A stretch of 64,000 bases of DNA from a virus. Positions within the stretch are counted from its first letter, which is position 1; every line of letters starts with the position of its first letter. Shown in pieces: positions 27,562 through 43,355 of this stretch. The stretch spans positions 36,505 to 100,504 of IMG/VR virus record IMGVR_UViG_3300027668_000010; one strand, 5' to 3'. The translations under genes were made by a program, and so were the position numbers. A model generated the notes under the pieces. It was given only the letters and a program-made list of their open reading frames with translations. It did not search any database and had not been told where the DNA came from.

Positions 27562-28052
27562 TGCCTGATTATTACAATACACATCTAAGAAAAACATCAG
27601 ACCCTACTCTAATTAACAAAACCAAATTAGAGAGGGGAATGGTTGTTAAAATGAAATACAAAAAAGATAAGGAAACTAAACTTTATATAGTGTTTGTATT
27701 ACAACCCAAATGGCCAAATACAACAGATGGTAAGTTACATGGATTATCATTCTCAGTAATACCTCCAAATAAGGTCAAAGAAATTTCAGAACTGTATGAT
27801 GAGGTTATATCATCTTCGAAAAAGGTGAAACGATTGGATTTAGCTAAGATTCAAATCAATGAAGCATCTAAAGTGTTTTATACATCAGAAATCAAAACTG
27901 AAAAACAATTAAGAGCTGGTTATAGAACATTTGATTTAAAGAAAATACAATCAGTTATGGCAGTTAACTATGATTGGGGTAAATATGATAAGATACCATC
28001 AGCAGCTCAACGTAGAATTGATGAACAAAAAAAGTTAGATGATGAAGATTAG
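27561..28052 (+). CDS. hypothetical protein in glycan cassette, 163 aa
   Basis: The start overlaps the preceding stop by one base. The 163-residue basic protein has a beta-rich N-terminal half (GMVVKMKYKKDKETKLYIVFVLQPKWP...LHGLSFSVIPP) and a C-terminal part, VFYTSEIKTEKQLRAGYRTFDLKKI. Similar patterns occur in tailed-phage structural neighbourhoods. It has no glycosyltransferase features. It could be a virion protein lying among the sugar genes, possibly even their acceptor (speculation). Confidence 0.6.
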   Translation: MPDYYNTHLRKTSDPTLINKTKLERGMVVKMKYKKDKETKLYIVFVLQPKWPNTTDGKLHGLSFSVIPPNKVKEISELYDEVISSSKKVKRLDLAKIQINEASKVFYTSEIKTEKQLRAGYRTFDLKKIQSVMAVNYDWGKYDKIPSAAQRRIDEQKKLDDED

Positions 28053-28662
28053 TTATGCAATACCCGTTTGTAATGAGTTAAATGAAATTAAAAGATTAAT
28101 TCCCTTTTTACTACAAACCAAACAACCTGATGATGAGGTTGTTGTACTATTTGATTCAATTAATGGGTCTGATGGGGTTAGGGATTACCTTATGAGTGCT
28201 AGTGAGTATGGTGAATTTAAATGGTATGATTATCCATTCGATGGGCACTTTGGTAATATGAAAAATAAACTAACTACTCATTGTAGTGGTGATTATATAT
28301 TTCAGATTGATGCAGATGAAATTCCAAATGAATCATTCATGCTTAACATTCATGCAATACTTGAAGAGAATGATGTTGATGTTGTTTTAGTACCGAGAGT
28401 TAATACAGTAGAAGGTTTAACTGATGAGCATATCCAAAAATGGGGATGGAACGTAGATGAAAAAGGATGGGTACAGTTTCCCGATTATCAATGGAGGATT
28501 TATAAGAACAACGAATCAATCAGATGGCAAAATAAAGTACATGAAACTTTAATAGGATATAACACCATTTCTAATTTACCTTCAATAGAAGAGTTAGCAT
28601 TATATCACCCAAAGACAATTGATAGACAAGAAAAACAAAACGCATACTACGATACCTTATGA
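28039..28662 (+). CDS. GT2-like glycosyltransferase
   Basis: GT-A fold: ISYAIPVCNELNEIKRLIPFLLQTKQPDDEVVVLFDS, FQIDADEIP (DxD-type metal site) and WVQFPDYQWRIYKNNESIRWQNKVHETL. It is a short 207-aa catalytic domain. The start may be either of two adjacent ATGs. It overlaps both neighbours, a sign of coupling within the cassette. Confidence 0.85.
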   Translation: MMKISYAIPVCNELNEIKRLIPFLLQTKQPDDEVVVLFDSINGSDGVRDYLMSASEYGEFKWYDYPFDGHFGNMKNKLTTHCSGDYIFQIDADEIPNESFMLNIHAILEENDVDVVLVPRVNTVEGLTDEHIQKWGWNVDEKGWVQFPDYQWRIYKNNESIRWQNKVHETLIGYNTISNLPSIEELALYHPKTIDRQEKQNAYYDTL

Positions 28663-29501
28663 TATTTTGGAGAACGTATAACAACAAAGTACACTCAATT
28701 GAAGAAACTAACAAATTAGGATTCCCAATTGATAATGCATCATATATACCTGATGAGTATTTAGAAAAAGGTGAATTTGTAATTTTAAGGACAGCATTTG
28801 GAGTGGGTGATTGGGGAATAATATCAGCATTCCCTCGAAAACTTAAAGAGAAGTATCCTGATTGTAAGGTTTTAATACCATCACCAACATTACTAAGAAG
28901 TATGTTTGGTGAGCTAGAGAAAAATTGGAGCTCTTGGAGTGACCCATTTAAAGTAGTTAATACTATATTTGATAACAATCCTTATGTTGATGGGTTTATT
29001 GATTCATTTGAAGAAGATGTGTTCAATGACCACTATCGTATATATGGTAATACAGATGTACCATTGATGGAAGAAATTTTACGATTTTGGCAGTTTGATA
29101 ATTTTGATAATATTGAGCCGGAATTACATTGGTCTAAAGAAGAACTAGAACTCGGTGATAAAATCATTAAGGAACATTGTAATGGTGAATTCGGAACTCT
29201 CCTTATATCAAACAGATTTGATGGTATTGGTATTAAGAAAATTCAGAAAGTGGTTAGTGATTATAACTTACCAATGTTTTATTGGACTAAATCACCTGAA
29301 ATTGATGGGTTGGAATTTACAAAAGCTTTGGATATGAGACATATAGATACTCGTATTCAACTATACATTAAAAGTAAAGCAAAGTTCAATGTAGGTAATC
29401 AGACTGGTGTTAATGATACAATAGCAAACTATACACCAACATTAACCGTAGCTCGACCTAATATTGGGTCTAATATAATCCGTAGTCAGATTTATTTATG
29501 A
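28659..29501 (+). CDS. glycosyltransferase-like protein (GT9-like)
   Basis: ATGA overlap with the preceding gene. The N-terminal part, ILRTAFGVGDWGIISAFPRKLKEKYPDCKVLIP, resembles GT9/heptosyltransferase GT-B starts (G-x-GD...A...l...p). The C-terminal VGNQTGVNDTIANYTPTLTVARPN has the G-P donor-loop style. At 280 aa it is on the short side. The donor sugar is unknown. Confidence 0.6.
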   Translation: MIFWRTYNNKVHSIEETNKLGFPIDNASYIPDEYLEKGEFVILRTAFGVGDWGIISAFPRKLKEKYPDCKVLIPSPTLLRSMFGELEKNWSSWSDPFKVVNTIFDNNPYVDGFIDSFEEDVFNDHYRIYGNTDVPLMEEILRFWQFDNFDNIEPELHWSKEELELGDKIIKEHCNGEFGTLLISNRFDGIGIKKIQKVVSDYNLPMFYWTKSPEIDGLEFTKALDMRHIDTRIQLYIKSKAKFNVGNQTGVNDTIANYTPTLTVARPNIGSNIIRSQIYL

Positions 29502-30181
29502 AAATAGTAGTTTATACCGCAATCATTGGTGGATATGATACATTAACCGAACCATTAGTAACACCTGATGGGGTTGATTTCATATGCTTTACTGATAGGG
29601 ATATTAAAAGTGATGTATGGGAAATTCGAAAGGTTTTACCTTTATATGAAGATAATACCCGAACTGCCAGAAAATATAAAATATTACCTCATAGATTTTT
29701 ACCTGAGTATGATATATCAATTTGGGCCGATGGGAACGAAACGATAGTAGGTGACGTTAATAAACTTTTAGAAAAGTTCCTTACTGATAAGAATATGGCT
29801 GTTTATAATCATATGAGTTGTTGGGATAAGCGGGATTGTGTATATAAAGAAGCTCAGGCTATATTTGATTTAGGTAATAACAATAATAATTGGAAAGATT
29901 CCCCATCTATAATTCAGAAACAAATAAAACGATATACGGATGATGGGTATCCTTTAAACAATGGATTAATAGTTAGTGGGGTAGTTCTTAGAAAGCATAA
30001 TGAAGGTGATATTATAAAATGTATGGAACTATGGTGGGAAGAACTTAAATATGGTAGCAAAAGAGACCAGCTGAGTTTTAATTATTCTGCTTGGAAATGT
30101 AATACTCACTTTAATTGGATTAACCAAGATATCAGAAATGATGGTTATGTCTTAGAAGTTAAACACAATCACCAAAAATGA
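29498..30181 (+). CDS. TOD1/MUCI70-type (DUF616) glycosyltransferase-like protein
   Basis: The N-terminus VVYTAIIGGYDTLTEP...DFICFTDRDIKSDVWEIRKVLP..EDNTRTARKYKILPHRFLPEYDISIWADGN matches the DUF616 pattern. This family has glycosyltransferase-like fold features, with WADGN as the metal-binding position. ATGA overlaps on both sides couple it to the neighbours. The acceptor is unknown. Confidence 0.75.
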   Translation: MKIVVYTAIIGGYDTLTEPLVTPDGVDFICFTDRDIKSDVWEIRKVLPLYEDNTRTARKYKILPHRFLPEYDISIWADGNETIVGDVNKLLEKFLTDKNMAVYNHMSCWDKRDCVYKEAQAIFDLGNNNNNWKDSPSIIQKQIKRYTDDGYPLNNGLIVSGVVLRKHNEGDIIKCMELWWEELKYGSKRDQLSFNYSAWKCNTHFNWINQDIRNDGYVLEVKHNHQK

Positions 30182-30735
30182 AAATAGCAATACATCAACC
30201 GAACTTTTTACCTTGGTATCCGTTTTTTCAAAAAGTTGAAGAAGTGGATAGGTTTATTATATTAGGTAATCCACAATTTGAAAAAAATGGGTTTCAAAAC
30301 CGTTTCAATCTAAATGAGAAATGGCATACGATGAGCACCAAAAAGGGATTAGACCCTATTAATACAAAGATATATTTAAATCCTTTAAAAGATTGGAATA
30401 AAATTAAATTAAACTTACCGGAATATAAAGATATTTTAGATAAGTTGGATGAGTGTATTAGTGATAATCTGTTTACAACCAATTCTAAAATAATAGAAAA
30501 ACTTACAGAAATGTTAGGGTATAACACAGAGATATTATACGATTATCCAACTGATTTAAAATCAACTGAGCGGTTAGTGGATATCTGCTTACATTATGGG
30601 GCTACTGAATACCTTTCGGGTATTAGTGGTAAGAAATATTTAGATTTGAATTTGTTTGAATCTAATGGAATTAAGGTAAAGTTCCAAGAAACATCAACAA
30701 AAATACATACATTAAAATTATTAAGTAATGAGTAG
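30178..30735 (+). CDS. WbqC-like family protein
   Basis: The start MKIAIHQPNFLPWYPFFQKVEEVDRFIIL, followed by FQNRF and a YLSGISGKKYLDLNLFESNGIKV segment, is the signature of the WbqC family. This family is found in O-antigen and polysaccharide loci, often next to aminotransferases and glycosyltransferases. The length, 185 aa, is slightly short. It supports a surface-glycan pathway encoded by this phage. Confidence 0.85.
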   Translation: MKIAIHQPNFLPWYPFFQKVEEVDRFIILGNPQFEKNGFQNRFNLNEKWHTMSTKKGLDPINTKIYLNPLKDWNKIKLNLPEYKDILDKLDECISDNLFTTNSKIIEKLTEMLGYNTEILYDYPTDLKSTERLVDICLHYGATEYLSGISGKKYLDLNLFESNGIKVKFQETSTKIHTLKLLSNE

Positions 30736-31282
30736 AAAAACATTTAGATTCGATGATATATGTTCAAACGCTGATATGAAACTTCATATTGATATAGCAG
30801 AACATATTAAAAAAGAAATCCCATCAGCGGATGTAATATTCTGTGTATCACCATTGGTGCATGATATGAGTTCAGAGATTGGTAAAACAAAACAACGAAT
30901 ATTTCCACAGATATTAAACGCACATAGTGATTATAGGAAATTTTATCAAGTAGATAACTGTGGTATCCCCACATTTCCAGAGTGGATAAGTAGAGCTGGG
31001 CATGGGTTAATACACGTCGACCATAGATTATTAACTAAAGAAACACAAGAACTTAGTATCCTAACCAGTTGTAGTTTATCTAAATCTACTACATTCGTAC
31101 CACCATTTAATAAATGGAATGCACATACTGATGCAATTTGTAATGAGCATGGTATAAAGTTAGTAAAATTTGAAGATGGGTGGTTATGTTGTGAATATAA
31201 CGAATACAATCCTAAGAATAATCTATGGTATATACATGCTAGAGAATTTACATTAGAAAGTTTTAAAAATTGGTTAGGGTGA
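30728..31282 (+). CDS. NodB-like polysaccharide deacetylase-like protein
   Basis: RFDDICSN near the N-terminus fits the metal-binding Asp pair of NodB-type deacetylases. GHGLIHVDHRLL supplies a histidine motif, and FVPPFNKWN resembles the catalytic-arm FRPPxG motif. At 184 aa it is a minimal domain. It would remove acetyl groups from an N-acetylated sugar of the cassette product. Confidence 0.6.
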   Translation: MSRKTFRFDDICSNADMKLHIDIAEHIKKEIPSADVIFCVSPLVHDMSSEIGKTKQRIFPQILNAHSDYRKFYQVDNCGIPTFPEWISRAGHGLIHVDHRLLTKETQELSILTSCSLSKSTTFVPPFNKWNAHTDAICNEHGIKLVKFEDGWLCCEYNEYNPKNNLWYIHAREFTLESFKNWLG

Positions 31283-32274
31283 AACGTATATTACTTATAA
31301 CATCCCAATATAGGGTAGGTGAGCGAATATATCCAATAATACCACATCTTGCAACGGAGTATGATGTCGACTTACTAAAAGTATATCAAATGGCTGATAA
31401 TCATAAGTGGGTTGGTGATGTTGATATGAGGGGTGTATTTAATAAAAAATATTCAGAGTACTTTCAGAATATATATCAACATAAATGTGATGTATCAAAT
31501 TACGACCTCATCATATCCGATGATAATAGGGATAGTAAAAAGACTAATCTAAGAGATGTATATTCTAAAAAGAACTGTAATCTTATAGCATTTGGACATG
31601 GTAACACCGAAGAACCCTACTTCAAACGAGGATATAAGATTGTATTTGATAAATGTATGGTGTTCGGTAAAAAGGATACTATACATACAGATTGCATAGC
31701 TAGTGGTATTCCATGTAATGATAATCTTATTAACTATAAGAATCTTCCCAAAAAACATATATTGGTTATAGTTAACTTTTTAGGTAATAGGAATGCACCA
31801 TTTCAAAAATTCAATGAGGATTTTTTCAAAAAGATTGATATATTAAATATACAAAAGTACTTTAATCTTCCTGTAATTATAAAATTAAAGAGTCGGGCTG
31901 ATGAGGGTGGTTATTCCCAAAATACATCATACCTACATAAGATTTTACCAGATGAGTTAGATTATAAAATAGTAATCGATACCGTTGATGATAATAAACT
32001 AATAGCGGAGAGTAAGTGTGTTATTTCAGCACCATCAACTTTTGCGTTTAAACCAATACAGCTTGGAATACCTACTGTTTTAATAAAAAGATATGGCCAG
32101 GATGGTAGTTTTTCTGATTACGATTCTTTATTTGATATTAATACAAATATATTACCACATTTATCAAATGATGTAAAGCATACCGATTGGATATTAAATT
32201 CAATAGAAGGTGGTTTGATGTTTAATAGTACAGATATTGTAGTTAACATTTTAAAAGAATTAATCCGAAATTAA
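31279..32274 (+). CDS. GT-B-like transferase / CDP-glycerol transferase-like protein
   Basis: A GTG start at 31279 makes a four-base GTGA overlap with the preceding gene and is preferred over an upstream TTG. The 331-residue protein starts RILLITSQYRVGERIYPIIPHL. Its C-terminal AESKCVISAPSTFAFKPIQLGIPTVLIKRYGQDGS resembles the donor site of UDP-sugar epimerase/glycerophosphotransferase-type GT-B enzymes. The precise activity is unknown. It is the last gene of the first cassette transcript, and a promoter follows. Confidence 0.55.
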   Translation: MKRILLITSQYRVGERIYPIIPHLATEYDVDLLKVYQMADNHKWVGDVDMRGVFNKKYSEYFQNIYQHKCDVSNYDLIISDDNRDSKKTNLRDVYSKKNCNLIAFGHGNTEEPYFKRGYKIVFDKCMVFGKKDTIHTDCIASGIPCNDNLINYKNLPKKHILVIVNFLGNRNAPFQKFNEDFFKKIDILNIQKYFNLPVIIKLKSRADEGGYSQNTSYLHKILPDELDYKIVIDTVDDNKLIAESKCVISAPSTFAFKPIQLGIPTVLIKRYGQDGSFSDYDSLFDINTNILPHLSNDVKHTDWILNSIEGGLMFNSTDIVVNILKELIRN

Positions 32275-32275
32275 T

Positions 32276-32306
32276 TAGGTTATATGGGAAATAATTAGTA
32301 TATTTG
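32276..32306 (+). promoter_or_regulatory. replication-type promoter inside the glycan cassette
   Basis: TTAGGTTATATGGG with TATATTTG at 32299 and 21-nt spacing. Its downstream flank closely matches that of the promoter at 20284. Confidence 0.75.
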
Positions 32307-32327
32307 TGTAAACAATAGGTATAAATA

Positions 32328-33287
32328 ATGAAAGAAAACATAATTGTATATGTGTCATCTAGAAACAACTATGATATGGTTGAAGGGGCTGTTCTAAAAA
32401 ATATTAAATTAGATGGTTACGAATTTATCAATGTGGATGATGGTAGTTGTGATGAAGAGGTAGCTAAAGGGATAGAACAATCAAAAAGGATTGGGTTCAC
32501 ATTCCTACAGAATAAGAAGCGTGGTGTACAGTATGCAACTCAAACCGTAATTGATTGGGTAAATGAAAATAGACCTAACTGTAAGTACATAGTTTGTTTT
32601 CAGCACGATAATTACCCAATAAGTGATAACTTCTTTGATTCAATGAATACACAAATTAAATCATTGGAAAATGAAAACGTAGGATTGATTGGATTTAATG
32701 TTTTAGATAAGGGTAGTTATACCGGCAATTCGTTAAAACGATACTATAACTCAGAACCCAATGTTAAGGGGATGATAGGTATGTGCCATTTAACTGTAAT
32801 GGATAATCGTAAGAGGTGGTTATGTCCTACACGTCAACCAAACCTAATTAAGCATGAGGGGTTCAACACTCCGTTTTCAATTGAATTCCCAATGTGGGCT
32901 GCAATCGGTATTAATGTAAAAGCATGGAATGATGTAATAGAGCCAACGGAGGATTACCAATTTCACTTATGGGCTCCAGATATAGCATTCCAATTCAATT
33001 TTAAAAATTATATGTCGGTTATTCTACCAAATTTATATTGTATGAATGACCAGAATTTGAAGAACAATTTTGGGATACATGAGAATAGCGCCCATAGTGC
33101 TAAAGCTGGTAATGAATTCCATTTCGGAGAATACGGACCTCATTTAACTAATTTCAAAAAGAGATGGGGGTGGGATTACGAAAATGTAAAAGGGACGTTC
33201 CCAAAAGTAAAAGATAAGTACGTTGGTACTTTAATAGAACAATATTATATGCACGATATAAATAAAGGACCATTATGGAAACTATGA
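32328..33287 (+). CDS. GT2-like glycosyltransferase
   Basis: The 319-residue protein has a GT-A type N-terminus (IVYVSSRNNYDMVEGAVLKNIKLDGYEFINVDDGS) and a CFQHDNYP segment at the metal-site position. GFNTPFSIEFPMWAAIGINVKAWND is the acceptor region. It is the first gene of the second cassette transcript and overlaps the NeuC-like gene. Confidence 0.8.
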   Translation: MKENIIVYVSSRNNYDMVEGAVLKNIKLDGYEFINVDDGSCDEEVAKGIEQSKRIGFTFLQNKKRGVQYATQTVIDWVNENRPNCKYIVCFQHDNYPISDNFFDSMNTQIKSLENENVGLIGFNVLDKGSYTGNSLKRYYNSEPNVKGMIGMCHLTVMDNRKRWLCPTRQPNLIKHEGFNTPFSIEFPMWAAIGINVKAWNDVIEPTEDYQFHLWAPDIAFQFNFKNYMSVILPNLYCMNDQNLKNNFGIHENSAHSAKAGNEFHFGEYGPHLTNFKKRWGWDYENVKGTFPKVKDKYVGTLIEQYYMHDINKGPLWKL

Positions 33288-34303
33288 TTATGAGTAGATT
33301 TTTACATATAGTTGGAACACGCCCCAACTTTATAAAAGCTTGGCCTGTTATTGTAGAACTAAATAAATTAGGTTATACTAATGAGGTTTTAAATACAGGC
33401 CAACATTATGATAAGAATATGACAGATGATATTCTGAATGATATTGGTATGTATACCCCACATTATAATATTAATAGAGGTAATGTTGCAGAAATGATTA
33501 ATGGGATTACACCTATTATGGAGTACAATTATGATGCTATCTTTATTTATGGAGATGTTGATTCCAGCTTAGCTGGGGCAATCGCAGCTCATTCAAAAAA
33601 AATAGATATAATTCACGTTGAATCGGGACTAAGGAGTGGTGATTTACAAATGCCTGAAGAAGTTAATAGGAGAGTAATTGATATACTATCTAAATGGAAA
33701 TTTACAACAGAGATTGATGGGGTACATAATCTAATAGATGAGGGGTTATCAGAAAACACCAAGTTGATTGGGAACACAGCTATCGATACGTTAAAGAAGT
33801 TACCTTTACATAAAGTAAATACGGATAATTTCGGAGGCATATTACTAACACTCCACCGACCTTTCAATGTTGATAATTGCCCCAACCTCACAGAAATTCT
33901 TTTGGAAGTTGATTCATTAGGATTGGATGTTATATTCCCAATACACCCCAGAACCAGAGAAAACATAATAGGTCATTATAATAATATTACATTAGTTGAA
34001 CCAATGGGTTATAAAAAATTCATGTCAACCTTAGTAAATTCTGATTTTGTAATAAGTGATTCAGGTGGTATACAATGTGAATGTGCTTCATTGAATGTTC
34101 CGTTATTCATACTAAGACCAAGCACAGAGCATAAATCAGTATTAAAACATAACAAAGCAAAGTTAATTAACACAGATGATATTACTCTCAAAAAATTAAC
34201 CGATTTCATAGAGAATGAGTATAACCATAACTCAGTAAATACTTTATGGGATGGTAAAGCAGCAGAGAGATTAGCATTTGAAATAAGTAAAATATATGAG
34301 TAA
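33284..34303 (+). CDS. UDP-GlcNAc 2-epimerase (NeuC/WecB type)
   Basis: Family motifs are complete: HIVGTRPNFIKAWPVIVEL, GDVDSSLAGAIAA, HVESGLRSGDLQMPEEVNRRVID, LTLHRP and SDSGGIQCECASLNVPLFILR. In nonulosonate pathways the hydrolysing form (NeuC) releases ManNAc-type sugars from UDP-GlcNAc. The non-hydrolysing form (WecB) makes UDP-ManNAc. The NeuB and NeuA neighbours favour the former. The start at 33284 gives an ATGA overlap. ATGs at 33275 and 33290 are alternatives. Confidence 0.88.
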   Translation: MIMSRFLHIVGTRPNFIKAWPVIVELNKLGYTNEVLNTGQHYDKNMTDDILNDIGMYTPHYNINRGNVAEMINGITPIMEYNYDAIFIYGDVDSSLAGAIAAHSKKIDIIHVESGLRSGDLQMPEEVNRRVIDILSKWKFTTEIDGVHNLIDEGLSENTKLIGNTAIDTLKKLPLHKVNTDNFGGILLTLHRPFNVDNCPNLTEILLEVDSLGLDVIFPIHPRTRENIIGHYNNITLVEPMGYKKFMSTLVNSDFVISDSGGIQCECASLNVPLFILRPSTEHKSVLKHNKAKLINTDDITLKKLTDFIENEYNHNSVNTLWDGKAAERLAFEISKIYE

Positions 34304-35252
34304 GATATTAGTTACAGGTTGTGCAGGCCTGATTGGAAATCACGTAGTAGAAATCCTTTTAGATAAAGGTTACGATGTAATCGGAGTAGATGATTTGAGT
34401 TATGGTTCGAATATGATGAATCACCCAAAGTTCAAATTTGTAGAAAGTAAAGTGCAAAGAGTTTCATTAAAACAGTTGATAAATACGGATGAGTTGGATG
34501 TAGTATTCCATTTAGCAACTCTAAAAAAACCATTTAATGGAGTTAAGTGTAACTCATCAGATGTAATGTTAAATAGCGTTACAATGGCTCAAACTATTAA
34601 ATCCATATGTAAATCGACTGGAGCATTTCTCATATTCAGTAGTACATCAGATGTATATTCAAACTCAAGTACATTTAAAGAAACCGATAGATTAACGATT
34701 GGACCTCCTACCATTAGAAGATATAGTTATGCGATGACCAAATTATGGGAAGAGCAATATTATATGGACTTATTTAAAGAAGGTTACATCAATGGTTCGA
34801 TTGCTAGAATATTTGGATGCACCAGTCCAAAAGCTGTAAAAGGTTGGAGTGGTGGACATATCCCATTATTTTTAGATAAAGCAATGAAAGGTGAGGATAT
34901 TGTTATACATGGTGATGGTACTCAAACGAGAAGTATAGCTCACGCCGAAACCATCGCTGCAGGATTAATTAGAATGTATGAGATGAAGCAAGTTTCAACT
35001 AAAGAAATATTTAATTTAGGTTCTGATAAACAGGCCTCAGTAAGAACGGCAGCGGAACTAATTAAAACAATAACAAATAGTAAATCAGAAATAAAACACA
35101 TAAGTACTAAAGAGGCTTTTGGTGATTATCCTGAAATAGAATATAGATTCGCAGATACCAAAAAAGCACGTAAGATTTTAGGTGTTACATTTGATGATAA
35201 TTTGGATGATATAATAACAGAAATGTACAACGAATGGAAAATAGAAAAATAG
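34296..35252 (+). CDS. NAD-dependent epimerase/dehydratase (SDR)
   Basis: Extended SDR with LVTGCAGLIGNHVVEILL (NAD-binding GxxGxxG), FSSTSDVYSNS and the catalytic pair YSYAMTK (YxxxK). HGDGTQTRSIAHAETIAAGLI is the UDP-sugar-binding end. It would epimerise or dehydrate a nucleotide sugar to supply a donor for the neighbouring glycosyltransferases. It overlaps the NeuC-like gene by eight bases. Confidence 0.87.
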   Translation: MSKILVTGCAGLIGNHVVEILLDKGYDVIGVDDLSYGSNMMNHPKFKFVESKVQRVSLKQLINTDELDVVFHLATLKKPFNGVKCNSSDVMLNSVTMAQTIKSICKSTGAFLIFSSTSDVYSNSSTFKETDRLTIGPPTIRRYSYAMTKLWEEQYYMDLFKEGYINGSIARIFGCTSPKAVKGWSGGHIPLFLDKAMKGEDIVIHGDGTQTRSIAHAETIAAGLIRMYEMKQVSTKEIFNLGSDKQASVRTAAELIKTITNSKSEIKHISTKEAFGDYPEIEYRFADTKKARKILGVTFDDNLDDIITEMYNEWKIEK

Positions 35253-35280
35253 TAGTAAAATTAATAGCAAACTAAGAGTT

Positions 35281-36636
35281 ATGAAAATAAAAAATATCCA
35301 CAACGCATTTACAGTAGTAAATGTAAACAATCATAAAATAATATGTGACCCTTGGATATCAGAAGGAATATTTGATGGGACTTGGGGTAAATTCCCTTAT
35401 GTTAAAAACATAGAACAATATATAAAAGATACAACCCATTGTTTTATATCACATGTACACCAAGACCACATGGATTTAGAAGCTATAAAGCTTATGGGTA
35501 AATCTACTAAATTTTACATCCCAAACATATACCCAAACCATGTTATAACCAATATATTAAATAATTTAGGATTTGAATACATAAAGATGTTAGACCCATT
35601 AGTAAAAACCGAAATAGAACCTGGATTATATTTTAGTATAATACCACCAATGAATGGGGGTGGTTTGGTTATGGATAAAACAGATGAAGAGGGAACATTA
35701 GCACATTTATCTGTTGATGCTGGGTTAGTTATAGAGGATAAAGATGCAAAAGTAGTATTATTATCTGATAATGGACCTTATAAATTAAATAAAGAGTTAA
35801 CGAAGGTGATGGGTGGTGCAGATTTATTAGCATTTCCTTTTAATGGTGTAGCCGATAATTACCCGGTATGTTTTAATAATATGACTTTAAAAGAAAAACA
35901 AAACGCTTCTTTAAGAAGGCAATCAAATAGAAAAACACTTCAATCTGAAACTTTTAAAACATTACAACCCAAAAATCTTATGCCATATTCATCTGATATT
36001 GTTATAATAGGACCAAGAGCAAAGGATTTTGCTAACGTACATCCTATTGAGTATGTAGATAGGGAATTGGTATCAAAAATATATGAAGAATCAACAAATA
36101 TACCAACACATGCGGTATGTTACAATAATAATATAATGATAGAAAATCATAATATGGTTATAGAGGGGGATTATATTGAACATGATTTTAAATCATATGC
36201 ATATTCTAAATACTCTAATGATATTAACCCCATTATATCACACCCTTCTATAGATAAAGAAACATTAATGCATAATTTTAAATTAGCATGTGATAATATG
36301 TTTTCTATGATGGGAAAGTTAAATCTAAAATCAGAATGGGTATTATGCTTTAATATTGAAGATTTAAATATTAGTTTTAGTGTAAATCTAAAAACAAAAA
36401 CATTAAAATTTAACAAAACGCAACCACCATCATTTCTATCTCTTTCTTATATTAATGAAAAAGTTCAAACACTAACAATCACATCAGGGTATTTAGATAA
36501 GCATTTTTTGTTTTATCACCATTGGAATAATTCTATTATATCACATAATTTAAATTGGCATAGAACTATAGATGAATATTGTGGGGGGATGGAAAGTGCA
36601 CTAAACTTCTTACACTTAAACACTAAAGATAGATAA
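35281..36636 (+). CDS. metallo-beta-lactamase-fold protein, CMP-sialate hydroxylase (CMAH)-like
   Basis: The N-terminal half has ICDPWISEGIFDGTWGKFP, then CFISHVHQDHMD (HxHxDH, His58 to His63), then LLSDNGPYK. This matches the DPWLxGxxF...ISHxHxDHLH pattern of the metallo-beta-lactamase-like part of CMP-Neu5Ac hydroxylase and related UlaG-type proteins. No Rieske CxH..CxxH motif is visible, so oxygenase chemistry as in CMAH is unlikely without a partner. It sits in a nonulosonate gene cluster, so a sugar-related substrate is inferred. The sequence is notably AT-rich (AAA, ATA codons), and recent acquisition is possible. Confidence 0.7.
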   Translation: MKIKNIHNAFTVVNVNNHKIICDPWISEGIFDGTWGKFPYVKNIEQYIKDTTHCFISHVHQDHMDLEAIKLMGKSTKFYIPNIYPNHVITNILNNLGFEYIKMLDPLVKTEIEPGLYFSIIPPMNGGGLVMDKTDEEGTLAHLSVDAGLVIEDKDAKVVLLSDNGPYKLNKELTKVMGGADLLAFPFNGVADNYPVCFNNMTLKEKQNASLRRQSNRKTLQSETFKTLQPKNLMPYSSDIVIIGPRAKDFANVHPIEYVDRELVSKIYEESTNIPTHAVCYNNNIMIENHNMVIEGDYIEHDFKSYAYSKYSNDINPIISHPSIDKETLMHNFKLACDNMFSMMGKLNLKSEWVLCFNIEDLNISFSVNLKTKTLKFNKTQPPSFLSLSYINEKVQTLTITSGYLDKHFLFYHHWNNSIISHNLNWHRTIDEYCGGMESALNFLHLNTKDR

Positions 36637-37562
36637 TGGGAAATAAAAAAATAGCAGTTATAACGCCAGTATCTCATCTTGATGGTGTAGTAGAATTACT
36701 TTTAACTAAAGGTACATTATTTGTATTTGAAGAAGCAACAAAAGTTAGGGTTAGAGAATTATTACTAACACATGATATTGATACTATTATATGTAACCCT
36801 AACCAACAGACATATAAAATAGATAAAGAATTACTAGATGGGACTAATGTTAATCTAATTAATACCTGTTCCACAGGTATGAATCATATTGATGTTGAAT
36901 ATTGTGAATCTATTGGAATCAAAATATATTCTCTTACCAAAGATTATGAATTAATTAATCAACTACCATCCACATCAGAACTTGCGTTCGGATTGTTGTT
37001 GGACTTAATGCGAAACATCACAAAATCAAACAACGTTACAAAACGTGATGAGAGTTGGGATTACTTACCATTCATAGGCCAACAGATGAAAGATTATAGA
37101 ATTGGTATTGTTGGTTATGGTAGACTTGGTAAGATGATGGCTAAGTATTGTAGGGCATTTGATGCTATTGTGGATATATACGACCCATATTCAAATGAAT
37201 CGACTGTTGATACCTTAGAAGAGTTATTTGATAAGTGTGATGCTGTATCACTTCATGTTCACGTTACTGATGAAACTAAGTATATGATTGATTATAACTT
37301 ACTTTCCCGTAATGTTAAGTTCTTAGTAAATACAGCACGTGGTGAAATTGTAGAAGAATCTGATGTTGTTAAAGCATTAAAGGAATCTAAGTTATTAGGT
37401 TACGGTACGGATGTAATTGAAGATGAATTTGGTGATATTAAAAATTCACCTCTGTTTTATTTGGAAAATTCAAATTTAAATTGTATATTTACACCTCACA
37501 TTGGTGGTATGACCATACAAGGACAAACAAAAGCCTACAAATGGGCCATTAATAAACTGTAA
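36636..37562 (+). CDS. D-isomer-specific 2-hydroxyacid dehydrogenase
   Basis: NAD-binding GIVGYGRLGKMMA, then VNTARGEIVEE (Arg), then a GTDVIEDEFGD (Glu/Asp) and CIFTPHIGGMT (His). This is the R-E-H catalytic order of the family. Length is 308 aa. It would reduce a 2-keto acid, and in a nonulosonate cluster the substrate might be a keto-acid intermediate (inference). A promoter for the next gene lies within its last 100 bases. Confidence 0.88.
   Translation: MGNKKIAVITPVSHLDGVVELLLTKGTLFVFEEATKVRVRELLLTHDIDTIICNPNQQTYKIDKELLDGTNVNLINTCSTGMNHIDVEYCESIGIKIYSLTKDYELINQLPSTSELAFGLLLDLMRNITKSNNVTKRDESWDYLPFIGQQMKDYRIGIVGYGRLGKMMAKYCRAFDAIVDIYDPYSNESTVDTLEELFDKCDAVSLHVHVTDETKYMIDYNLLSRNVKFLVNTARGEIVEESDVVKALKESKLLGYGTDVIEDEFGDIKNSPLFYLENSNLNCIFTPHIGGMTIQGQTKAYKWAINKL
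37461..37491 (+). promoter_or_regulatory. internal promoter for neuA-neuB
   Basis: TTTGGAAAATTC with TATATTTA at 37484 and exactly 21-nt spacing. It lies inside the dehydrogenase gene, about 75 nt ahead of the cytidylyltransferase start. Confidence 0.6.
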
Positions 37563-37567
37563 AAACT

Positions 37568-38119
37568 ATGAAAGTATTAACAATTATACCGGCTAAGTTA
37601 GATTCGACTAGGTTAGAGAAAAAGAATATTCGTAAGATTAACGGAAAAACATTAGTGGAACATTCAATTGAATATGCAAAGAACAGTAAGCATGATGTAG
37701 ATATCATAGTTTCATCAGAATCAGATGAGGTTAAAGAAACCGTTTTACCACATGATGTTATATTTCATAATAGAAAACAAGAACTATGTGGGGATACAGA
37801 AGTAGTAGATGTATATTTAGATGTTGTAAATAACGTAGTTAAAGATTATGATTTAGTAGTAGCGTTACAGCCTGATAATCCTAACAGGTCACATACTTTA
37901 GATGAGTGTATTAATTATATGTTGGATAACAATTACGATGATTTGATTACAGTAAATCCAAATTATAAACGAAGTGGTTCAGTTCGTATTTTTAAATATA
38001 AATATTTAAAAAATGGTGAAGTGAGTAAACGGCTTGGGTGTATAAAGGATTCTGCTATTGATATTCATTATGAAGATGATTTAAATAAAACAAAAACTAA
38101 AATGGCAAGTAATGATTAA
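37568..38119 (+). CDS. CMP-nonulosonate (NeuA-like) cytidylyltransferase
   Basis: The N-terminus TIIPAKLDSTRLEKKNIRKINGKTLVEHSIEYA is the nucleotidyl-transfer motif of NeuA/KdsB-type enzymes. IIVSSESDEV, VALQPDNPNRSHTLDECI and a C-terminal acidic metal-binding end follow. The protein is 183 aa, shorter than bacterial NeuA (about 220 or more), so part of the dimer arm is reduced. It would activate a nonulosonic acid with CTP. It overlaps the NeuB-like gene by eight bases. Confidence 0.88.
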   Translation: MKVLTIIPAKLDSTRLEKKNIRKINGKTLVEHSIEYAKNSKHDVDIIVSSESDEVKETVLPHDVIFHNRKQELCGDTEVVDVYLDVVNNVVKDYDLVVALQPDNPNRSHTLDECINYMLDNNYDDLITVNPNYKRSGSVRIFKYKYLKNGEVSKRLGCIKDSAIDIHYEDDLNKTKTKMASND

Positions 38120-38933
38120 AGTAATAGCAGAGATAGGTTGGAATCATTGTGGTGATATGAACCTTGCAAAAGAAATGATTTTAGCCGCTAAAGAAAGTGG
38201 TGCAACATACGCAAAATTCCAAAGTTGGTCAGTAAGCAAATTAAAAGCTGGTGATTGGGATTCTGATGGTAGACGTGAAATATATAAAAAAGCAGAGCTA
38301 ACAAAAGAACGTCATTTGGAACTGATAGATTACTGTAAAAAAGTGGATATCACATTTCTATCAAGTGTATTCAGTATTAGAGATGCTGAGTTATTAGTAG
38401 AGTTAGGTGTTAGGGAAGTTAAAATCCCAAGCTTTGAATCTAGGAATCATAAACTTATAAGATTCTGCGATGATAATTTTGATGTGGTTTTCATGTCAAC
38501 TGGGACTTCTAATTTAGACGAAATCGCCGAAAGTGTTAAGAATATTAAAAAATCAAACTTATATTTACTACACTGCGTTTCAACTTATCCATGTGACCCA
38601 TCAATGGCTAACATACTTCGTATGAATAGCTTGAAACTATTAGGATGTTCAAAAGGTGAAAGTCGACCTAAAATTGGATATTCAGACCATATTCAAGGTG
38701 TTGAATCCGCAAAAGTTGCAATTGGGGAAGGTGCAGAAGTTATAGAGAAGCACTTTACAACTGATAATGATTTACCAGGTAGAGATAATAAGTTTGCAAT
38801 ACTACCACATGAAATGAAAGATTTAACCGATTACATTACTATGCGAGATGAAATGTTTATATCACATGGTACGGGATATCAAAGTAGTGAATCAGATTCA
38901 AGAACTAATTACGCTGGTAGGTTTGATGTATAA
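38112..38933 (+). CDS. NeuB-like nonulosonate synthase without SAF domain
   Basis: TIM-barrel motifs are conserved: AEIGWNHCGDMNLAKEMI, AKFQSWS, FLSSVFS, EVKIPSFESRNH, FMSTGTSNLDEI, LLHCVSTYPCD, IGYSDHIQGVE and VIEKHFTTDNDLPGRDNKFAI. This is the PEP-condensing domain. The usual C-terminal SAF/antifreeze-like domain is missing (273 aa against about 340), which removes the lid that normally closes over the neighbouring active site. The product would be a sialic-, legionaminic- or pseudaminic-type acid. Confidence 0.9.
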   Translation: MIKVIAEIGWNHCGDMNLAKEMILAAKESGATYAKFQSWSVSKLKAGDWDSDGRREIYKKAELTKERHLELIDYCKKVDITFLSSVFSIRDAELLVELGVREVKIPSFESRNHKLIRFCDDNFDVVFMSTGTSNLDEIAESVKNIKKSNLYLLHCVSTYPCDPSMANILRMNSLKLLGCSKGESRPKIGYSDHIQGVESAKVAIGEGAEVIEKHFTTDNDLPGRDNKFAILPHEMKDLTDYITMRDEMFISHGTGYQSSESDSRTNYAGRFDV

Positions 38934-38953
38934 TTTTAAAAAAGAAAATTAAT

Positions 38954-39589
38954 ATGGTTAGTATTATACTTAGAAATAAAAATGAATCCGAATATATAGG
39001 ATTTACATTACAATCGATATGTGATTACCTGCCTGATGCGGAGGTAATCGTTATGGATAATAACTCAACTGATGATTCATTAAGTGTGGTTTCTCTATTT
39101 AATGATAGGTTAAGTATATCAGTAATTAATATAAATAATTACACTCCAGGAAAATCAATTAATGATGCAGTTAAGATATGTTCCAATGAAACTATATTAG
39201 TACTATCAGCACATTCTCAAATTACAGATATGGATTTGCCATATGTAGTTAAAGAACTAAAAACACATGCTGCTGTATTTGGAAATCAAACACCAATTTA
39301 TCGTGGTAAGAAGATTTCTAAACGATATATATGGTCGCATTTTACAACTTCCTCTAAAGTAAATATGTGGTCGGAGATTGAAGATAGACCTTTTTTACAT
39401 AACGCATTTTGTTTTTATAACAAAGCGGATTTGGTTAATAAACCATTCGATGAGAATTATTCAACTAAAGAAGATAGATATTGGGCAGCTGATATTTTAT
39501 CAATTAAAAAATCATATTTATATACACCGGTGATAGGAGTGAACCATTATTATACTAACAATGGTGCAACTTGGAAAGGTATCGGTTAA
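38954..39589 (+). CDS. GT2-like glycosyltransferase
   Basis: GT-A N-terminus: SIILRNKNESEYIGFTLQSICDYLPDAEVIVMDNNSTDDSL. It ends at the acceptor region with FLHNAFCFYNKADL and EDRYWAADIL. At 211 aa it is the catalytic domain only. It lies directly downstream of neuA-neuB and upstream of an epimerase, so a transferase using the new sugar is plausible but unproven. Confidence 0.83.
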   Translation: MVSIILRNKNESEYIGFTLQSICDYLPDAEVIVMDNNSTDDSLSVVSLFNDRLSISVININNYTPGKSINDAVKICSNETILVLSAHSQITDMDLPYVVKELKTHAAVFGNQTPIYRGKKISKRYIWSHFTTSSKVNMWSEIEDRPFLHNAFCFYNKADLVNKPFDENYSTKEDRYWAADILSIKKSYLYTPVIGVNHYYTNNGATWKGIG

Positions 39590-39599
39590 AATTATTATA

Positions 39600-40448
39600 A
39601 TGAAAATATTAGTTACAGGCGGTGCAGGTTTTGTTGGCACCAATCTTATTAAACGGTTATTAAAAGATGGACATGAAGTCATTTCTATTGATAATTACTC
39701 AACAGGTAAACCCGAAAACGAACAAAGTGGTTGTACCTATTTTAATGATGATATAGATAATATAACTAACTACGATAACTACCTATTGAGTAGTGTAGAT
39801 GTTGTATATCACTTAGCATCAATCGCAAGAATACAACCATCATTTGAACGTCCTGAAGATTACATCCAAACCAATTTTGGAGGGACATATGAAGTAGTTA
39901 AGTTCTGTGTTAAGTATAATATTCCATTAGTCTATGCTGGTTCATCATCTAAACACAATGGTAGATTCAAAAACCCATATACATTCTCAAAGGATTTGGG
40001 TGAGGATATTATAACATTATATTCAGAACACTTTGGATTAAAAGCATCAATAGCTAGATTTTATAATGTGTACGGACCACATCAATTAACTGAGGGTGGT
40101 TACACTACATTAATTGGCAGATGGCTTAATAATATAGAAAACGGAAATGATTGTGTTATCTATGGTGATGGAGAAAAGAGACGTGATTTCACTCACATTG
40201 ATGATATCGTAGAAGCTCTTATTAGAATACCACAAAAAGATGCTTGGGGGTGTTCATTTGAATTAGGTAGAGGTGTTAATCATTCAGTTAATGAAGTAGC
40301 TGATATGTTTGGTATAACACCTACATACGAAGATGATAAGCCTGGTGAAGCACAAACTACATTAAATGATGATATAGTAGCATCTGAGATTTTAGATTGG
40401 AAAGCTAGTATCGATTTAAAAGATTACATAAAAACAATAATAAAATGA
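39600..40448 (+). CDS. NAD-dependent nucleotide-sugar epimerase (SDR, GalE-like)
   Basis: The start at 39600 puts MKILVTGGAGFVGTNLIKRLL at the N-terminus. An earlier in-frame ATG lies within the preceding gene. The catalytic region AGSSSKHNGRFKNPYTFSKDLGED has YTFSK as the YxxxK motif, and GDGEKRRDFTHIDDIVEAL closes the sugar-binding site. At 282 aa it is a compact extended SDR. The following gene overlaps by four bases. Confidence 0.87.
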   Translation: MKILVTGGAGFVGTNLIKRLLKDGHEVISIDNYSTGKPENEQSGCTYFNDDIDNITNYDNYLLSSVDVVYHLASIARIQPSFERPEDYIQTNFGGTYEVVKFCVKYNIPLVYAGSSSKHNGRFKNPYTFSKDLGEDIITLYSEHFGLKASIARFYNVYGPHQLTEGGYTTLIGRWLNNIENGNDCVIYGDGEKRRDFTHIDDIVEALIRIPQKDAWGCSFELGRGVNHSVNEVADMFGITPTYEDDKPGEAQTTLNDDIVASEILDWKASIDLKDYIKTIIK

Positions 40449-41212
40449 AGAAAAATATAGTATTTATCCCAGCTATTGATGCCGGTAGAGGTAGGCATAA
40501 CGCATACCAATACAGTATTTCTTCTTGGAGGAAATGGGCTGAAAAACACAATGCGGAGGTATTGGTATGGGATACCCCATTATATACATGGGAGGATATG
40601 ACCATTCCTTGGCAGAGATATTATTTATTTAAGATATTGGAACATAACAATATAGATTATGACCAGATTCTAATGGTAGATTCAGATACAGTTGTACATC
40701 CAGATACCCCAAACTTCTTTGAATTTACAGAAAGAAAGTATGTTGGTGTATTAGATTTAGGTTGTTGGGAATGGACTGGTAGGTCTATCAGACACTATAA
40801 GGATTTATTTAATGGATTTAAGATTGATAGAGGTATATACTTTAATGGTGGGTTTCAGATTGTTAACGAAACGCATAAACCATTCTTTGATAAAGTAATA
40901 GAATTTTATAATGAACACAAAGATGTATTAGTAGAAAAGCAAAAGGCTGGACTTGGTACTGACCAAACTGTTATAAACTATTTAGTTCAGACGAGTGGTA
41001 TTGATTTAAAAATGTTTTCTCCATCATATAACTTACACCACTTAGTTAGTAAAAACTTACTGAACTTCGGTCATTCTTGGTGGGGAGATACACTTGAAAA
41101 TCTATATGAGCAAGCTTGGGTGTATCACTTTAACGCAATGCCGGCAAATAAGTTAAACAGAGATTCCGATTATTTTATAAAAAGAGCATATACTGAGTTA
41201 TGGGAAAAATAG
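40445..41212 (+). CDS. GT-A glycosyltransferase-like protein
   Basis: ATGA overlap with the epimerase. The 255-residue protein has a Rossmann-like start (IVFIPAIDAGRGRHNAYQYSISSWRKWAEKHN) and LMVDSDTVVHPDTP as a DxD-type metal site. YFNGGFQIVNE and GTDQTVINYLV are typical of GT8-like enzymes. The donor sugar is not predictable. Confidence 0.78.
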   Translation: MKKNIVFIPAIDAGRGRHNAYQYSISSWRKWAEKHNAEVLVWDTPLYTWEDMTIPWQRYYLFKILEHNNIDYDQILMVDSDTVVHPDTPNFFEFTERKYVGVLDLGCWEWTGRSIRHYKDLFNGFKIDRGIYFNGGFQIVNETHKPFFDKVIEFYNEHKDVLVEKQKAGLGTDQTVINYLVQTSGIDLKMFSPSYNLHHLVSKNLLNFGHSWWGDTLENLYEQAWVYHFNAMPANKLNRDSDYFIKRAYTELWEK

Positions 41213-42147
41213 CATTCATTTCAGAACTACCATTTAATGGTAAAGTAGACCGAAACCACCCACATATGAGAACCGAGTTTGCACAGTTCTGTGCATTACA
41301 AGCGGACCATTATTGTTTCTATGATATAGATGATATTAAAAGTGGATACGACCACATAATATTACTTGTAAGTAAGACGGATTCACTAAGGGATTACCTT
41401 TATAAAAAGGGTGATATAGTTGCAGGGCTACGAGTACATGGTAATAAAATTTGGTTTATGCAAGAGTCAAGCGCTCAGATATATCAAACAAAACCACTAC
41501 ATCTACAAATCTGGCATTATAACTTATTACAAGAAGTTGATGGTGTTCTAACTGAGAATACTACTGATTTTAACTATTTTAGGGGTATCATTGGGGATAA
41601 AAAAGAAATAAATACCATTCCGACTTTGATTATTCAGGATAATATTGTACATTTAAGGGATAACGTAAAAGAAGAAAAGACAATGGTGGGTGGTAACTTC
41701 AATTCATGGTATGGGGGATTTGATTCTTATTTAGTTGCATCTGAATTTGAAACACCTATATCAGTACCTAAAATGCGTAAGGTTGATAATGAACATCAGT
41801 TGGTGGAGGTATTACCCCACGTAACATTTAACGAATGGATGGGTATATTATCAAAATATAAATATGCAGTACATATGATGTCAAATGTTACGGCTGGTAC
41901 GTTTTCACTAAATTGTTCATTTTTTGGAATACCTTGCATTGGGTATGTAGAATCCGATACACAAAGATTAACACAACCGAAGTTATCAGTTGATAGATTT
42001 GATTTAGGTAAAGCTGTTAAATTAGCCAAACTATTAAAAAACGATAATGATTTTTACAATGAGTGTTCTAAAGAAGCACTTGATAACTACAACAAACACT
42101 TCTCAGAAGAAGTATTTTTAACCCATATGAAAAAAGTTTTAAAATGA
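41200..42147 (+). CDS. GT-B-like glycosyltransferase
   Basis: The 315-residue protein begins IAFISELPFNGKVDRNHPHMRTEF and ends with an SLNCSFFGIPCIGYVESDTQRLTQPKLSVDRFDLGKAVKLAKLL segment of donor-binding character. The region between looks like an alpha/beta GT-B protein. Strong motifs are lacking, so the call rests on general layout and on position between two glycosyltransferase genes it overlaps. Confidence 0.5.
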   Translation: MGKIAFISELPFNGKVDRNHPHMRTEFAQFCALQADHYCFYDIDDIKSGYDHIILLVSKTDSLRDYLYKKGDIVAGLRVHGNKIWFMQESSAQIYQTKPLHLQIWHYNLLQEVDGVLTENTTDFNYFRGIIGDKKEINTIPTLIIQDNIVHLRDNVKEEKTMVGGNFNSWYGGFDSYLVASEFETPISVPKMRKVDNEHQLVEVLPHVTFNEWMGILSKYKYAVHMMSNVTAGTFSLNCSFFGIPCIGYVESDTQRLTQPKLSVDRFDLGKAVKLAKLLKNDNDFYNECSKEALDNYNKHFSEEVFLTHMKKVLK

Positions 42148-43355
42148 TAACAAAAAAAGATATTTCGTTTATACAACCCTCAAGGAACAATTTACGCTAC
42201 TTGAAGTGGTCATACGATTCAATCAGAAAGAATGGTGGACCAGAACCAACTATATGTGTTGCTGATGATTTCAGTAACGATGGAACTTGGGAATGGTGTG
42301 AGGATATGATGAAGAAAGACCCAAACTTCAAAGCAATAAGAAATGAAGGGCCGAAACGATTAGGACATACGATTCTATATGATGAGTTAGTTGAGATAGC
42401 AGATACTCCAATTGTAGGAATCTACCATGCAGATATGTATCTTTGTCCTGGTGCATTGGAATCTGTATTAGAACATATCAAACCAATGCACGTTGTATCA
42501 CTTACTAGAATAGAACCACCACTACATCCAGATGGGCCTGAGAAGATTCTATTGGATTTTGGTATAGAGCCTGAAGAGTTTGAAAAGTTAGAAGATGAAC
42601 TCCTACATCAGATTCCATCATTAAAGCAGGGTAAAACTACGGAAGGTATATTTGCACCTTGGTTCTTATTTAAAGAAGATTTCACATCAATTGGTGGGCA
42701 TGACCCATTATTTGCACCACAATCAAAAGAAGATACTGATATTTTCAATAGATTTCATTTGAATGGATATAAGTTCGTTCAGACTTGGGATGGGTTTGTA
42801 TATCATATGACTTGTAGAGGTAGTAGATTTGCAGATGGTGCTAAGAGAAACCCAAATGGTGAAGTGTTTATGAAGAATAGAGAAACGGATGAGTGGTTAA
42901 CTCAGAACAACCGTTCAAAACGTAACTTCATCAGAAAGTGGGGGCATTTTTGTAAGCATGATTCTTTAATGAAACCAATCGTACCACCAAAGTATGATAT
43001 TGGATTTAGAGTTTCTAATGTAAATGAGAAAATTCTAAATATGTTAGAACCTTGGTGCAACAATATTAGTGTTGAAACTGGGATGAATAATGAATTAATT
43101 AACGAATATATTAAATCAGAACAACCGGATACGGAATTTAATATAGCAGATAAAATAAACAATACAGTTGGAAATGATATTATTGTAAAGTTTGATGCAA
43201 ATAAATTAACCCAATATTCGTTTCAGCTGATAACAGAGTTCTCATCAATACTTGAGTCATCAGAAATTGAGATAGGTGAGTTCGAATTGGATATCTTCAA
43301 ATTCACCATCAATAGATTGAAAACTTACGAAAGTGAATTGATAGTATGCTGGTAA
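42144..43355 (+). CDS. GT2-like glycosyltransferase with C-terminal extension
   Basis: The N-terminal 250 residues form a GT-A domain: ISFIQPSRNNLRYLKWSYDSIRKNGGPEPTICVADDFSNDG, GIYHADMYL (DxD-like) and FTSIGGHDPLFAPQSKEDTDIFNRFHLNG. About 130 extra C-terminal residues (NISVETGMNNELINEYIKSEQPDTEFNIADKI) resemble an acceptor- or partner-binding module. It is the last gene of the cassette and overlaps its neighbour by four bases. Confidence 0.85.
   Translation: MITKKDISFIQPSRNNLRYLKWSYDSIRKNGGPEPTICVADDFSNDGTWEWCEDMMKKDPNFKAIRNEGPKRLGHTILYDELVEIADTPIVGIYHADMYLCPGALESVLEHIKPMHVVSLTRIEPPLHPDGPEKILLDFGIEPEEFEKLEDELLHQIPSLKQGKTTEGIFAPWFLFKEDFTSIGGHDPLFAPQSKEDTDIFNRFHLNGYKFVQTWDGFVYHMTCRGSRFADGAKRNPNGEVFMKNRETDEWLTQNNRSKRNFIRKWGHFCKHDSLMKPIVPPKYDIGFRVSNVNEKILNMLEPWCNNISVETGMNNELINEYIKSEQPDTEFNIADKINNTVGNDIIVKFDANKLTQYSFQLITEFSSILESSEIEIGEFELDIFKFTINRLKTYESELIVCW

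Follow-up and report, generated by a model that had tools for sequence, protein, structure and literature searches.

The gene at 35281..36636 (+ strand) of the window, i.e., the whole 64-kb stretch analysed, which is part of a 100.5-kb virus record, encodes a 451-residue protein (P0001). Based on its open reading frame, Pfam matches, alignment and phylogenetic tree, P0001 very probably belongs to the CMAH/NamH superfamily, as a member without a Rieske domain. In this superfamily, NamH converts the N-acetyl group of UDP-MurNAc to N-glycolyl, and CMAH converts CMP-Neu5Ac to CMP-Neu5Gc. The most likely activity of P0001, to which we assign a probability of about 0.5, is hydroxylation of the N-acyl group on a nucleotide-activated sugar, the electrons being supplied by an external donor. 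By tree and alignment, P0001 is not an isolated case of Rieske loss but part of a large Rieske-free branch. This branch is broad and so far apparently unstudied; literature searches on phage nonulosonate synthesis and on prokaryotic CMAH homologues found nothing on point.

The reading frame is intact from its ATG to its TAA, which overlaps the next start as TAATG. In comparison with two virus relatives, the dN/dS ratio amounts to about 0.20-0.24 (0.21/1.04 and 0.35/1.50), which indicates purifying selection. With regard to the domains, the only Pfam match is Lactamase_B_2 (3.6e-6; 27.2 bits, cut-off 27; residues 18-196), and no Rieske domain was found in this search. The MBL-fold domain comprises about residues 1-250 (35281..36030, + strand), as indicated by Pfam, secondary structure and the match to the CmlA profile (positions 4-236). 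The AlphaFold2 model, for which 40 window and locus sequences were used as input, exhibits a mean pLDDT of 89, with a loop predicted to be disordered at residues 126-143, and Foldseek searches with this model retrieved MBL-fold proteins. No family matching P0001 was found in PHROGs, a PDB search with P0001 as a single protein gave chance-level matches only, and a fold search of BFVD returned nothing informative.

The D23-P24-W25 motif (35347..35355) and the putative metal-binding motif H58-x-H60-x-D62-H63 (35452..35469), both on the + strand, are invariant in 40/40 family members, as is W35. Two invariant carboxylates follow on the same strand: D146 (35716..35718), ahead of the motif-4 strand, whose role as a metal ligand is only possible, and D163 (35767..35769), the motif-4 Asp, which corresponds in the alignment and profile match to the D of 'AADST' in CmlA. 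Overall, 13 residues are invariant in the 40-member alignment, with or without Rieske: D23, P24, W25, W35, S57, H58, H60, D62, H63, D146, D163, A191, and P195. The MBL fold with DPW and HxHxDH motifs, already recognised in the sequence-only reading, is thus borne out by Pfam, AlphaFold2, Foldseek and residue conservation.

The C-terminal part, about residues 256-446 (36046..36618, + strand), is a probable SCP2-like domain, recognised with hhalign via intermediates and ending in a HWNN...NW.R.......LNFLH motif. This domain matches the C-domains of other Rieske-free proteins (probability 98.3, 2.3e-14), and these match the C-domain of the Rieske-bearing proteins, including those of the NamH type (probability 96.4, 1.1e-9). 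The direct comparison of the P0001-clade C-domain with the Rieske-bearing C-domain is weak (6%), so the homology of this domain of P0001 to that of the Rieske-bearing proteins runs through intermediates. The Pfam SCP2-like domain PF25451 is matched in 9/40 family members and in none of the Rieske-free ones. This second domain was absent from the sequence-only reading.

At least 80 loci were collected from a genome scan, which is not a census, and 32 from a virus scan. Searches of plasmids with tblastn retrieved haloarchaeal proteins of 447-448 residues, i.e., of P0001-like length, and nocardial proteins of 516-517 residues annotated as MBL or Rieske, which comprise MBL, SCP2_Rv3818 and Rieske domains according to Pfam. 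The SCP2_Rv3818 and Rieske domains are matched by Pfam in L004 and L005. A Pfam Rieske domain is present in exactly 10 of the 40 aligned members, and the tree splits these from the 30 Rieske-free sequences. The Rieske-free branch that holds P0001 is strongly supported and comprises sequences from phages, haloarchaea, thaumarchaea, alphaproteobacteria and CPR. The first 40-sequence tree took in the Rieske columns; the split between the microbial Rieske-bearing sequences and the rest recurs in the tree from which the Rieske part was removed. Within the Rieske-free branch, P0001 forms a 100/100 group with L001, L087 and the Nitrosopumilus protein L007. A search of viral_contigs for further members of this sub-branch returned just L001 and L087 again, and a search of 50,697 phage records yielded no full-length relative. 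A staphylococcal match among cultured phages (two records), covering 82 residues at an E value of 8e-3, was rejected as a relative.

The proposed relationship to the MBL domain of CMP-sialate hydroxylase is supported by the two-domain family of NamH and by the alignment with a 588-residue protein of a virus contig, L169, which was found by a reverse scan with NeuB. On this contig (109-4736), NanE, NeuB, a methyltransferase-like ORF, a CMP-transferase and the 588-residue Rieske-MBL protein are followed by a DnaB-type helicase. The L169 protein exhibits an N-terminal Rieske domain (2.9e-10), an MBL domain and the family C-domain, which is the CMAH domain order; it scores 200 bits against a family profile built without it and shares 25% identity with P0001 across 232 residues. 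It serves as the real-sequence link to CMAH; an unverified CMAH sequence, with 124.7 bits against the family profile, is no more than a lead. The tree placement of this unverified sequence was dropped (very long branch of 3.16, weak support of 59/57), and CMAH is counted in the MBL and SCP2-like family by architecture. From its gene content, the L169 operon possibly encodes a complete phage Neu5Gc-type pathway. Neither L169 nor the Rieske-free phage protein L100 (8001-9341) had a match among cultured phages.

In L100 and 16 related Rieske-free proteins, a C-x4-C-x5-C loop is invariant (17/17), a Cys follows the motif-4 Asp in 94%, and YPQC is present in 88%; the sampled members of this sub-branch are haloarchaeal, phage and proteobacterial. 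These cysteines could form an internal Fe-S or Zn site. The loop is absent from P0001 and its own sub-branch, which would rely on an external donor. A further type is found in L107, L110, L114 and L115, phage proteins of NamH order (C-terminal Rieske) located in amino-sugar clusters; NeuB was not found near these genes on the three records checked.

With regard to the electron supply, the Rieske centre that the first inspection had failed to see is missing from P0001 and from the whole 100.5-kb virus record (possibly a fragment), where neither a Rieske nor a Fer2 ferredoxin was found. Likewise, no Rieske or replacement was found in the flanks of the Rieske-free loci. The Rieske [2Fe-2S] domain is reported to be essential for CMAH (PMC8227644), and CMAH requires cytochrome b5 partners (PMC9219854). 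Of the 13 genomes that carry a Rieske-free homologue, 12 encode COX1, which indicates that those hosts use O2, and also have separate Rieske proteins; the CPR bacterium L010, whose assembly is possibly incomplete, encodes neither COX1 nor any Rieske protein. CMAH loses its activity with the loss of its Rieske domain, which is the route by which Neu5Gc was lost in humans. As a fused Rieske is missing, the electrons for P0001 would come from a separate carrier of the host or the phage.

The record belongs to a phage with T4-like replication genes, whose DNA polymerase shares 48.5% identity with its counterpart in Microcystis phage Mel-JY01 and about 31% with those of Synechococcus myoviruses. 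Positions 24827-43355 of the + strand comprise a long run of glycosyltransferase and sugar-enzyme genes, inside which a WbqC-family protein is also encoded (30178-30735). Upstream of P0001 lie an Epimerase_2 gene, coding for a WecB/NeuC-like UDP-HexNAc 2-epimerase (33275..34303; Pfam 1.3e-65; NCBIfam wecB 202.7 bits, slightly below the cut-off of 210.15), and an NAD-dependent epimerase/dehydratase (SDR) gene (34296..35252; Pfam Epimerase 1.5e-34). Downstream are the genes of a D-2-hydroxyacid dehydrogenase (36636..37562; Pfam 2.7e-38), which overlaps the MBL gene stop codon, a short CMP-sugar cytidylyltransferase of 183 residues (CTP_transf_3, 37568..38119; Pfam 4.1e-20) and a NeuB-family PEP-condensing synthase of 273 residues (38112..38933; Pfam NeuB 8.2e-55), all of these neighbours being on the + strand. 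In the synthase, NeuB is the only domain matched by Pfam, and the protein scores 191 bits for NCBIfam NeuB and 153 bits for PseI, each under its own cut-off. The nonulosonate neighbourhood noticed from the sequence is therefore real: according to Pfam, Epimerase_2, NeuB and the CMP-transferase are all within 3 kb of P0001.

This neighbourhood also extends to many Rieske-free relatives, as the association with nonulosonate genes put forward earlier implied. Among the matches listed, NeuB lies within about 10 kb of 21/46 Rieske-free and 0/72 Rieske-bearing loci; the Fisher p of 7e-11 is inflated, since the Rieske-bearing set is mostly from Actinobacteria and the Rieske-free set includes duplicates (L093-L095, L088/L089, L108/L112, and the window twice). 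The presence of NeuB anywhere in the genome (10/13 genomes with a Rieske-free gene against 9/14 controls) is uninformative alone. In Nitrosopumilaceae, the MBL homologue adjoins NeuB in two genomes, and the NeuB enrichment (5/7 vs 64/193, p = 0.049) is suggestive only. In the phages L093, L100, L101, L106 and L108, the MBL gene adjoins NeuB, a CMP-transferase or a Polysacc_synt_2 dehydratase, the latter adjoining both the Rieske-bearing L107 and the Rieske-free L093 and L100 homologues. Two different NeuB genes flank one MBL gene in L097, L098, L100, L101, L106 and L108, which suggests two nonulosonates per phage.

The closest relatives, L001 and L087, keep Epimerase_2, the SDR, the D-2-hydroxyacid dehydrogenase and the CMP-transferase. 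In these otherwise matching clusters, a DAHP/KDO8P-type synthase (PF00793; 1.1e-53 in L001) occupies the NeuB position (L001:12581-13423; L087:15169-15999), and the weak NeuB matches in both records fall at this position. The product of this synthase need not carry an N-acyl group. Among 80 NeuB-seeded phage loci, the MBL gene is present in 3/80, the D-2-hydroxyacid dehydrogenase in 35/80 and the CMP-transferase in 77/80; the MBL gene is thus an optional accessory gene rather than a core step, as is expected of a decorating enzyme on a conserved phage cassette. A cassette comprising the D-2-hydroxyacid dehydrogenase, a short CMP-transferase and a short NeuB is conserved in marine phages (window 36636-38933; L128-L160).

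We propose that P0001 is a monooxygenase with a non-haem iron centre, probably diiron, in which H58, H60, D62, H63, D163, and possibly D146, would hold the metal that activates O2. The iron site itself is inferred for the family from the invariant HxHxDH and the two Asp residues. The enzyme would hydroxylate the methyl group of the N-acyl substituent on a nucleotide-activated amino sugar from the phage cluster, with CMP-nonulosonate or UDP-HexNAc as candidate substrates. The resulting N-glycolyl-type sugar would then be transferred by the neighbouring glycosyltransferases.

Among solved proteins, the family profile best matches FrsH (8a90, 5.8e-13) and CmlA (4jo0, 4e-10) at profile positions 4-236, both of which are diiron monooxygenases (PMC7794379). 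Like P0001, these two proteins lack a Rieske domain and carry HxHxDH in their MBL domain. Their substrates, in contrast, are NRPS-bound amino acids, and they possess a large N-terminal domain, whereas P0001 starts directly with the MBL domain and has a C-terminal SCP2-like domain instead. In addition, the third-motif Glu of CmlA, E377, has no conserved counterpart in the family: it aligns to an unconserved loop, and D146 aligns elsewhere. NamH (Rv3818), which comprises a UlaG domain and a Rieske domain and makes N-glycolyl muramic acid (MurNGlyc) (PMC10050696), shares with P0001 the UlaG-type MBL domain, the 13 invariant residues and probably, through the intermediates described above, the SCP2-like domain. 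It acts on a nucleotide-activated amino sugar, as would P0001; nevertheless, its Rieske domain is C-terminal, the identity is about 15-20% over the alignment, and NamH-type genes are found near murB in two plasmid loci, whereas P0001 lies in a NeuB/CMP-transferase cluster. CMAH and L169 share with P0001 the DPW and HxHxDH motifs, the downstream Asp, a putative sialic-type pathway context and a WNN/WDD...R.PD.Y-like C-terminal end, the CMAH side of this comparison coming from the unverified sequence, but both exhibit an N-terminal Rieske. As P0001 lacks the Rieske domain that defines CMAH and NamH, it is filed under neither.

The missing Rieske domain and the exchanged synthase of L001 and L087 make a hydrolase, or another substrate, possible. 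A hydrolase of sugar lactones or nucleotide sugars was suggested as a possibility in the sequence-only reading. Such an enzyme (lactonase, N-deacylase, esterase, or cyclic phosphodiesterase) would act on a sugar acid, either free or nucleotide-activated, with Zn or Mn in the common MBL site, the Rieske domain having been added or kept only in hydroxylases. This is consistent with the best library matches (Pfam Lactamase_B_2 and Lactamase_B_3, NCBIfam 'metal-dependent hydrolase'), with the lack of a Rieske domain in the protein itself, in its gene neighbourhood and in the virus record, and with the homologue in the one host without COX1. The top Foldseek matches are likewise hydrolases (SaxA, Igni18, and NAPE-PLD), but UlaG-type hydrolases and CmlA rank together in this search, so the fold cannot arbitrate between hydrolase and oxygenase. 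MBL hydrolases are marked by the His residues of motifs 3 and 5, and neither is conserved in the 40-member alignment; H142 of P0001 is missing from L087 and L007, while the QHG motif of SaxA is seen in the profile alignment. The UlaG/UPF0173/SaxA-type hydrolases share the fold and HxHxDH with P0001, but SaxA matches the family profile less well (7.7e-7) than the diiron monooxygenases, and P0001 exhibits an extra C-terminal domain. Together with the invariant residues, which are those of NamH-type proteins, and a cluster co-occurrence that fits an accessory sugar-modifying hydroxylase, these observations make hydrolysis rather unlikely. The earlier interpretation therefore stands as to the family, no unrelated MBL family giving a better fit, whereas hydrolysis finds no support as the leading option.

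An oxygenase could also act on another target, either a C-H bond at a carbon of the sugar ring or the chain, or a 3-deoxy-ulosonate without an N-acyl group. L001 and L087 retain the MBL gene while the PEP-condensing enzyme shifts from NeuB to the PF00793 type, and the MBL diiron site of CmlA and FrsH can hydroxylate non-amide carbons. However, the two sugar-acting members characterised so far both have an N-acetyl group as their target. Moreover, the window, L001 and L087 all retain Epimerase_2, whose family acts on UDP-HexNAc, so these clusters probably still produce an N-acyl sugar; we consider this target improbable. The loss of the Rieske domain and the disordered loop might further point to an inactive, scaffolding or lipid-binding relative whose role rests on the SCP2-like domain, a very remote prospect given that all the putative metal-binding residues are conserved and dN/dS is low. 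Against the N-acyl hydroxylation proposed here stand the Rieske requirement of CMAH, the L001/L087 synthase, L010, the Foldseek tie, the E377 gap and the low frequency of the MBL gene (3/80), and this reading keeps the even odds given above.

More tentatively, the Rieske-free branch as a whole might hydroxylate nonulosonate-type sugars, with the C-x4-C-x5-C and NDC cysteines of one sub-branch as an internal metal or Fe-S site, and phages might carry three versions of the enzyme (N-terminal Rieske, C-terminal Rieske, and none) for N-glycolyl-type surface sugars, their own or those of the host; we hold this broader scheme to be doubtful. The large natural Rieske-free group makes it possible to address directly the function of the MBL domain on its own and the source of its electrons. 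The clusters described here suggest that uncultivated marine phages make and modify nonulosonate-type sugars, including one phage with the full CMAH domain order.
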